Assembly: GCA_002163155.1 (NCBI GenBank)
Contig: MAAO01000002.1
Coordinates: forward strand, 124,001-188,000
DNA: 64,000 nt
Reading direction: 5' to 3'
Origin: Halobacteriovorax marinus
GTDB taxonomy: Bacteria > Bdellovibrionota > Bacteriovoracia > Bacteriovoracales > Bacteriovoracaceae
Shown piece after piece: positions 9,751 through 10,690 of the stretch. The position numbers were made by a program, and so were the translations under genes. The notes under the pieces are model-generated. The model saw only the letters and a list, made by a program, of their open reading frames with translations, ran no database searches and was not told the origin of the DNA. Numbering within the stretch: the stretch's first letter is position 1; every line of letters begins with the position of its first letter.

Positions 9751-10302
9751 TTACTTCAACAACTTTTCCAACTTCTTAAGTCTCTTTTCGATAGCACTAA
9801 ATTTCTTTTTCTGATCAGTGTTGTTCTTATATAAGACTATAAAATTTTGTTCTATTCTCTTTTCAAAATTAGAAAATGTTTTAGAAAGATGATCATTATT
9901 CTTTAACTCCATCATGAGATTTTCATTTTTGAGTATGAAGCGTCTTAGGTAGGTGAAGGCCCTCGCAATAAATAGGCCCATCTCTACTGCTTTGTCAGAT
10001 CTTAGAACGAAGGAGAGTGCATAGGCACCTTGTTCGGTAAATACGGTCGGGTACATGTAATTTCGAGAATTTGTCTTTCTCAGGATCACAGTTTGTGATC
10101 CTGATGCCTCAAGATCCTCAGTATTTAGTTTAAAACAAAAGTCCTCAGGGAAACGATTTTGATTTCTTTTTACAGCTTGATTAATAACTCTAATTTCCAC
10201 ATCGTAGAGTTCTGCCAAGTCTCTATCTAACATCACTTTTTGATCTCTAAAGATGTGGATGTTATTTGTAACTTCTAATAATTTTCTCTTCTTTGTAGTC
10301 AT
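9751..10302 (-). CDS. ORF6N domain DNA-binding protein
   Basis: The first 120 residues match the ORF6N domain of phage and bacterial KilA-N-type DNA-binding proteins: NNIHIFRDQKVMLDRDLAELYDVE, INQAVKRNQNRFPEDFCFKLN, and YPTVFTEQGAYALSFVLRSDKA. A coiled-coil-like tail (LMMELKNNDHLSKTFSNFEKRIEQ to LKKLEKLLK) probably drives dimer formation. TAGGAG sits 6 bases before the ATG and lies in a predicted hairpin. A perfect palindrome within the coding region encodes G-S-Q-T-V-I-L, and a closely related one lies 105 bases upstream of the start. These suggest autoregulation. It may be a phage-derived or domesticated regulator. Confidence 0.88.
   Translation of the reverse strand: MTTKKRKLLEVTNNIHIFRDQKVMLDRDLAELYDVEIRVINQAVKRNQNRFPEDFCFKLNTEDLEASGSQTVILRKTNSRNYMYPTVFTEQGAYALSFVLRSDKAVEMGLFIARAFTYLRRFILKNENLMMELKNNDHLSKTFSNFEKRIEQNFIVLYKNNTDQKKKFSAIEKRLKKLEKLLK
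10081..10103. promoter_or_regulatory. Palindrome inside the ORF6N coding region (operator candidate)
   Basis: The arms CAGGATCACA (10081-10090) and TGTGATCCTG (10094-10103) are perfect inverted repeats around the spacer GTT. The core TCACAGTTTGTGA is identical to that of the palindrome at 10407-10429. Being inside the gene, it also constrains the protein sequence. Confidence 0.6.
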
Positions 10303-10328
10303 GTACTTCTCCTAAAGAGAGGAGGTAC
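10303..10328 (-). promoter_or_regulatory. Hairpin covering the ribosome binding site of the ORF6N gene
   Basis: On the minus strand GTACCTCCT (10328-10320) pairs with AGGAG-AA-GTAC (10313-10303), giving 9 bp with a 2-base bulge and a 6-base loop. The AGGAG ribosome binding site is in the stem, directly before the ATG, so translation may be limited. Confidence 0.4.
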
Positions 10329-10406
10329 AAAAGTGAGGGAAAAGGAGAGTTAGTAATAGCTTGGATTGTTTAAAGGATGAGTAGTCTTAGATAGGAATTG
10401 ATTTTG

Positions 10407-10429
10407 TGAGGTCACAGTTTGTGACCTCA
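10407..10429. promoter_or_regulatory. Palindrome upstream of the ORF6N gene (operator candidate)
   Basis: TGAGGTCACA (10407-10416) and TGTGACCTCA (10420-10429) form a perfect 10-bp inverted repeat around GTT. It lies between the DUF1456 gene and the ORF6N start, and shares core and spacer with the palindrome at 10081-10103. A dimeric regulator, probably ORF6N itself, could bind both. Confidence 0.6.
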
Positions 10430-10444
10430 AATGAAGTGAGTGAA

Positions 10445-10690
10445 TTAATCTTTGTTCTTATGCTTATCAGGTCTTGGTCCACGTTTTTTTTCGATTAAAC
10501 CATTTAGAAATTTTCTAAGAACTTGATCACCACATTCTCTAAAGTGAGGATGATCGTCTTTTCTAAAGAGGGCCGAAAGCTCACTCTTGCTCATTTCAAA
10601 ATCAGAAAGTTTTAGGATCTCGATGATCTCTTCGTCTTTGAGTTGAAGGGCAATTCTTATTTTCTTAAAAATATCGTTATTCGTTAACAT
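10445..10690 (-). CDS. DUF1456 family protein, single-repeat form
   Basis: The sequence MLTNNDIFKKIRIALQLKDEEIIEILKL, then MSKSELSALFRKDDHPHFRECGDQVLRKFLNGL, is characteristic of DUF1456 (YehS in E. coli). E. coli YehS has two such repeats in about 156 residues; here only one repeat is present in 81 residues, ending in a basic tail (KKRGPRPDKHKNKD). The function of the family is unknown. GAGAG precedes the ATG. It lies upstream of the ORF6N gene on the same strand but is separated from it by the palindrome. Confidence 0.85.
   Translation of the reverse strand: MLTNNDIFKKIRIALQLKDEEIIEILKLSDFEMSKSELSALFRKDDHPHFRECGDQVLRKFLNGLIEKKRGPRPDKHKNKD

Follow-up and report, generated by a model that had tools for sequence, protein, structure and literature searches.

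ORF6N genes carry a conserved palindrome that is the predicted operator of their own product

Embedded operators in described systems and the ORF6N locus

C.Kpn2I, a restriction-modification controller, limits its own transcription by a roadblock at a site within its own coding region, and XRE genes related to C.Kpn2I carry similar motifs near their starts (PMC6237814). This system is the nearest precedent for the site described here. A binding-site-like sequence inside its own coding region was also found for an ORF6N gene in the window (the whole 64,000-nt stretch of Halobacteriovorax marinus DNA that was analysed), at positions 10080-10104, and in 236 of 256 homologs. However, C.Kpn2I belongs to the XRE/HTH family and its site lies at the beginning of the gene without obvious paired inverted repeats (PMC6237814), whereas the ORF6N site is a perfect palindrome of 25-27 bp, which is located about 200 nt inside the gene in codons of the DNA-binding domain and is present in nearly every member across phyla. 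A helix-base code and concerted switching are additional features on the ORF6N side. LacI restricts its own production through a roadblock at lac O3, an operator linked to its gene (PMC3711431). In contrast to the ORF6N sites, which occur almost only at ORF6N genes, lac O3 belongs to the control region of a different operon and is no embedded site shared by a whole family. In ParB-parS systems (e.g. parS within spo0J), a palindromic site is read by the product of the containing gene and incompatibility can arise between identical sites in one cell. For ORF6N, however, no partition partner was seen and there are many specificities per genome. In type I restriction systems, the specificity of HsdS is switched by swapping a DNA-reading segment between paralogs, whereas the tract that appears to be swapped in ORF6N genes carries the DNA site to be read as well. 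In the open-access literature searched, we found almost no described function for the ORF6N family and nothing on an embedded site.

The ORF6N gene of the window (10302..9751, minus strand) encodes a protein of 183 amino acids, for which the PF10543 profile and the structural model indicate an ORF6N domain (residues 14-97) and, behind it, two long helices. The profile match (E=1.9e-27, 95.8 bits vs. a cut-off of 27.8) identifies the gene as a family member. Its internal palindrome, TCAGGATCACA-GTT-TGTGATCCTGA (10080-10104, no strand), is the putative cognate operator, as judged from its sequence, its conserved place and its fit to the code described below. It involves 25 bp and is located about 210 nt into the open reading frame, where it encodes S67-L74 and the first base of codon 75. 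A second palindrome, TGAGGTCACA-GTT-TGTGACCTCA (10407-10429, no strand), is centred 116 bp ahead of the start codon and 326 bp from the centre of the internal one. Both share a 13-bp core, TCACAGTTTGTGA, which was not found elsewhere in the 64,000-nt window when two mismatches were allowed. An earlier sequence-only reading of this DNA had described two perfect palindromes with 10-bp arms and a GTT spacer, and it had placed the internal one 200-220 bases into the coding region, where it should encode part of the domain. Both palindromes are there and the placement was correct, but the arms of the internal one measure 11 bp, one more than claimed; those of the upstream one are indeed 10 bp long.

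Conservation of the palindrome and the helix-base code

For comparison we used a sample of ORF6N genes that comprised the own bacterial family, 80 named loci of other organisms and viral contigs. More than half of these genes originate from one bacterial family and the code was tested outside of this family, too. A search for the palindrome at the same codons of other ORF6N genes, which had been proposed as a check, gave a clear answer. A perfect or near-perfect palindrome of 25-27 bp was present at the same place in 236 of 256 distinct genes from many phyla and from viral contigs, and its centre is the first base of the codon after a conserved Gln. When 180 homologous genes were compared, pairing at this centre amounted to 9.76 of 11 positions, compared with a mean of 2.84 elsewhere (sd 0.47, maximum 4.65), and because this value far exceeds those of other centres the palindrome does not result from chance. 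For 131 dissimilar genes, a synonymous-codon null model predicted 5.35 paired positions out of 13 but 11.26 were observed (z about 43). Pairs 2-6 and 9-12 were complementary in 92-99% of the cases and pairs 7 and 8 in about 85%, whereas pairs 14 and 15 reached only 0.54 and 0.42. There are dozens of compensated changes across the family. The peptides encoded over the palindrome differ (LRSQFVTS, LRCQIGIS, LMFQFGTS, LWSQSVTI, WRTQFASS) and pairing is kept; four genes even read the palindrome in another frame, which yields unrelated residues such as EVVTNCDHL. Symmetry of the half-sites at k4k5 (palindrome positions k are counted from the centre) was observed in 86% of the genes vs. 31% expected under independence. 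Taken together, these comparisons strongly support the reading of the palindrome as a sequence constrained at the DNA level. The pRha phage regulators (PF09669), which are distant relatives forming a sister family, did not contain an internal palindrome in 15 loci above the pRha cut-off; palindrome-bearing loci with a pRha match have weak pRha scores and are ORF6N-like.

Palindromes were also found outside of the coding region. A post-stop palindrome, mostly 11-25 bp behind the stop codon, was present in 10 of the 20 genes without an internal one vs. 21 of the 236 genes with one (Fisher P 1.3e-5). The palindrome is needed in cis, though not always inside the gene. For three genes (L019, L121, L142) the internal site does not fit the code, and a fitting palindrome adjoins the gene. 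A regular looping pair of an upstream and an internal site, as suggested by the sequence-only reading, did not hold up as a rule. Only 31 of the 236 genes with an internal palindrome have a second one within 260 bp ahead of the domain, and flanking palindromes of such genes matched the code of their own gene in just 24 of 65 cases, which is the chance level. Thus, some sites do not belong to the gene next to them. The 65 extra flanking palindromes may serve other paralogs as sites, and in that case there would be a network. Several loci (L103, L129, L137, L138, L140, L142) contain extra palindromes within the coding loop, 27-78 nt off the expected place. Beside other ORF6N genes there are palindrome arrays (L121, -657 to -281 from the internal palindrome; L169, +334/+386/+428; L143, +332/+383; L159, -322/-280), the spacing of which is often about 42 or 52 bp, corresponding to whole helical turns; their arms differ and are still perfect or near-perfect.

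The bases of the half-sites covary with residues of one protein helix (h1, h2 and h5, corresponding to R38, V39 and Q42 in the window). APC-corrected mutual information connected k4 and k5 with two residues of this helix at 21, 15, 13 and 10 sd and k7 with a third residue at 9.7 sd, whereas control third positions reached values of up to about 6. In addition, k8-k13 were linked to residues of the following GGRRY-like segment. The helix residues that covary with k4/k5 are encoded about 24-27 codons away from the palindrome. Gln at h5 goes along with the half-site CA in 111 of 113 genes, Arg at h2 together with Glu at h5 with CG (44-45 of 47), Asn/Tyr plus Lys with TC (18 of 18), Arg with GC (18 of 18) and Ile/Val/Leu plus Arg with CC (5 of 5). 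Position k7 tracks h1 (G with Lys in 140/141, mostly A with Arg) and k8 tracks a wing residue (G with Tyr in 87/91, A or T with Lys in 75/79). In the major groove, Gln typically contacts adenine and Arg or Lys contact guanine. Leave-one-out analysis predicted the palindrome class correctly for 192 of 201 genes, compared with 113 when the majority class was assumed, and a code trained on the own family was correct for 88 of 92 genes of other phyla and viruses. Thus, the code between helix residues and half-site bases is nearly deterministic. The suggestion that gene and operator travel together is borne out by this covariation, and with regard to it the palindrome behaves as the ORF6N protein's own site would.

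For the window protein, the AlphaFold model and the covariation data point to a putative recognition helix IRVINQAVKR (codons 37-46, 10165..10194, minus strand) with R38, V39 and Q42 as specificity residues. RNYMY (codons 80-84, 10051..10065, minus strand) is the putative wing, since the homologous fourth residue covaries with k8. In the model, residues 37-46 are helical and the residues encoded by the palindrome form a low-confidence loop. R38, V39 and Q42 predict a half-site with k7=A and k5k4=CA, and the internal site has exactly these bases. The upstream site also carries k5k4=CA but has G at k7, which goes along with Arg less often (14 of 54 symmetric cases). Since the internal site fits at k7 and k5k4 and the upstream site only at k5k4, the former is the predicted main operator and the latter a possible second one; R38, V39 and Q42 would read the internal site in preference to the upstream one. 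The upstream palindrome is identical, including the rare GTT centre, to the internal palindrome (C1:1376296) of a broken ORF6N gene in the same genome (L049, G000:C1:1376235-1376390), with which the upstream site shares 36 bp at 89% identity. Because of this identity, the upstream palindrome may belong to or derive from the type of the broken gene.

Specificity switching and genomic context

On a tree that was built without helix, loop and wing, we counted 69 changes of h5 and 66 changes of the palindrome class. Both jointly required only 72 changes, so that almost all of them were concerted, with about 66 joint switches of helix and palindrome. Among close independent pairs of genes that differ at h5, the palindrome class was also different in 76 of 82. 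These data strongly support co-switching of helix and site, as far as sequence comparison can tell. Two genes (L002 and L004) share 96% and 88% identity on either side of a 111-nt segment that spans the helix up to the palindrome, and in this segment the identity drops to 56%, as if the helix tract had been swapped in one exchange. Helix codons and operator are about 80-100 bp apart and thus a single recombination tract could swap both, so that specificity would switch in one step and coexisting paralogs would be insulated. Identical palindromes were not observed in any of the 164 same-genome gene pairs, whereas random regrouping gave 7.5. At matched protein identity, coexisting paralogs shared a palindrome in 1 case vs. 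9 expected, a comparison in which the within-genome pairs are paralogs and the close between-genome pairs may be orthologs. The palindrome was also considered as a crossover site; this was rejected, since a comparison of the flanks among copies of the own genome revealed a variable segment and no point of exchange at the palindrome.

The host genome contains 15 ORF6N matches, and both arms of the palindrome are altered together in its copies (e.g. GGTCGC..GCGACC, AGTCAC..GTGACT). When a generalised 17-mer was searched genome-wide with up to two mismatches, we found 8 places, compared with none in the reversed control. Of these, six coincide with the same codons of ORF6N genes, another is the upstream site of the window gene and the last one lies elsewhere (C1:550822). 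In whole-genome scans, which revealed 2-8 sites in each genome, the palindromes clustered at ORF6N loci and were almost confined to ORF6N genes or their remnants. Dispersed repeats of the REP/RAYT type were ruled out by this distribution, since the sites are not scattered intergenically. A few lone palindromes (L256, L264, L252, L258, L265) were detected, some of them in recognisable remnants of ORF6N genes.

In the window, a DUF1456 gene (10445-10690) adjoins the ORF6N gene and is conserved in the genus (L201-L204). In the sister genome that was read (L201), no ORF6N gene directly follows DUF1456, and thus the window gene has probably been acquired at this position only recently. Sister genomes align with the window at their DUF1456 loci over the DUF1456 gene only, so that no empty-site boundary can be drawn at the palindrome; no clean empty site was found among 26 genomes of the genus that have one ORF6N locus. 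At some loci, units of about 0.5-0.7 kb are flanked by repeats of about 25-38 bp that resemble tRNA 3'-ends (AGTTCGATATGTCCAAACTACGCTCCACCA), and one such unit consists of just an ORF6N gene (L041, 110-147, 617-654, 1342-1379, 2020-2057; also L314, L285, L231, L250). Such a motif was present nearby in 31 of 256 ORF6N loci, and single-gene cassettes with tRNA-like attachment sites are possible.

Rival readings and the proposed mechanism

Since the palindrome encodes residues of the domain to which the helix belongs, the covariation might reflect packing of the palindrome-encoded loop against the helix. However, in genes without an internal palindrome the non-coding flanking palindromes obey the code without exception (13 of 13, permutation P 5e-5), with a fit at k8 too; palindromes read in another frame obey it in 4 of 4 cases, at both k4k5 and k7. 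Thus, protein packing does not account for the code, and with a loop that is modelled only at low confidence we regard this explanation as extremely improbable. Just as improbable is a mutational artefact, in which a near-palindromic protein motif was perfected by template switching (quasi-palindrome correction) and has no function. As known from template-switch mutagenesis in general, such correction yields perfect symmetry with sequence freedom, but it explains neither the covariation with a helix 24-27 codons away nor the post-stop copies that replace lost internal ones, and it is contradicted by the code in the non-coding copies. An mRNA stem-loop that is bound by the nascent protein or an RNase would be in line with perfect stems of 12-13 bp, a 3-nt loop, a predicted RNA stability of about -15 kcal/mol and an occurrence limited to transcribed or immediately flanking DNA. 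However, the sense strand shows no preference for G.U pairs (internal A.C 24 vs. G.T 11; external CA/AC 14 vs. TG/GT 9), no Rfam family matches the palindrome and the half-site would be read base by base via the helix-residue code. We consider this reading very unlikely, and a structured RNA element was rejected on the same G.U and Rfam results. A more general hairpin-first view (cruciform, ssDNA, RNA), which had started from free arms and perfect pairing, was abandoned once the helix-base code emerged. Sequence-specific reading of the palindrome by the gene's own product is indirectly but strongly supported by the covariation data, and ORF6N proteins would very probably bind a private operator that their own gene carries.

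A different question is whether such a private site is mainly an operator. It might instead serve as an address in cis, for incompatibility or exclusion of like copies or as a mark for exchange or mobilisation, with ORF6N genes as selfish cassettes. This would agree with the occurrence of the site both within genes and behind the stop codon, with the avoidance of the same palindrome by paralogs of one genome and with the numerous copies (15 in the host genome), which are often located near tRNA genes or bounded by repeats resembling tRNA 3'-ends. However, insulated autoregulators would equally avoid shared sites, the window does not contain a tRNA gene and no linked partner recombinase or nuclease was seen when the neighbours were looked at unsystematically. 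As the main function of the site, we find an address unlikely. Somewhat speculatively, ORF6N genes may be self-addressed selfish units, in which genes with the same address exclude each other and which form open-ended incompatibility types over bacteria and phages.

Our preferred reading, to which we assign a probability of about 0.7, is that ORF6N proteins are sequence-specific, winged-helix-like homodimers with a site in their own gene, a self-limiting roadblock and switching of specificity in one tract. Homodimer binding is most likely in view of the symmetry of the site. The specific site would be the palindrome of 25-27 bp, usually within the stretch that encodes a flexible loop of the DNA-binding domain, or else just behind the stop codon. 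The dimer would bind this site in its own transcribed gene, stall RNA polymerase and limit its own synthesis, which would provide each ORF6N gene with a private, self-contained negative feedback. We infer that the site most likely serves autorepression through a block of RNA polymerase. A plain roadblock is, however, at odds with the post-stop sites, which would not lower the output of their own gene. One report describes many transcription-factor sites within genes as transcriptionally inert (PMC10294691). Post-stop sites and the 24/65 match of flanking sites do not fit a plain roadblock and leave room for exclusion or address functions. Fold comparison of the model (VIA-align) gave middling similarity to winged-helix-like DNA-binding domains, namely Ski-like (Z 6.6), Dachshund (Z 5.7) and RacA-DNA (Z 5.0) structures. 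Foldseek did not return matches at E <= 0.001, sequence comparison did not retrieve a solved homologue and a DNA-level search did not reveal an E. coli relative.

For the ORF6N family, these data provide a predicted DNA site, a residue-to-base code and a model of autoregulation in one step. They point to a conserved double use of coding DNA, which encodes a protein loop and at the same time the predicted operator of the same protein, and which has persisted across phyla while specificity switched dozens of times. Natural pairs of cognate helices and sites may be a source of orthogonal regulators and a rare record of protein-DNA co-switching, in which gene and switch would travel and diversify as one unit.
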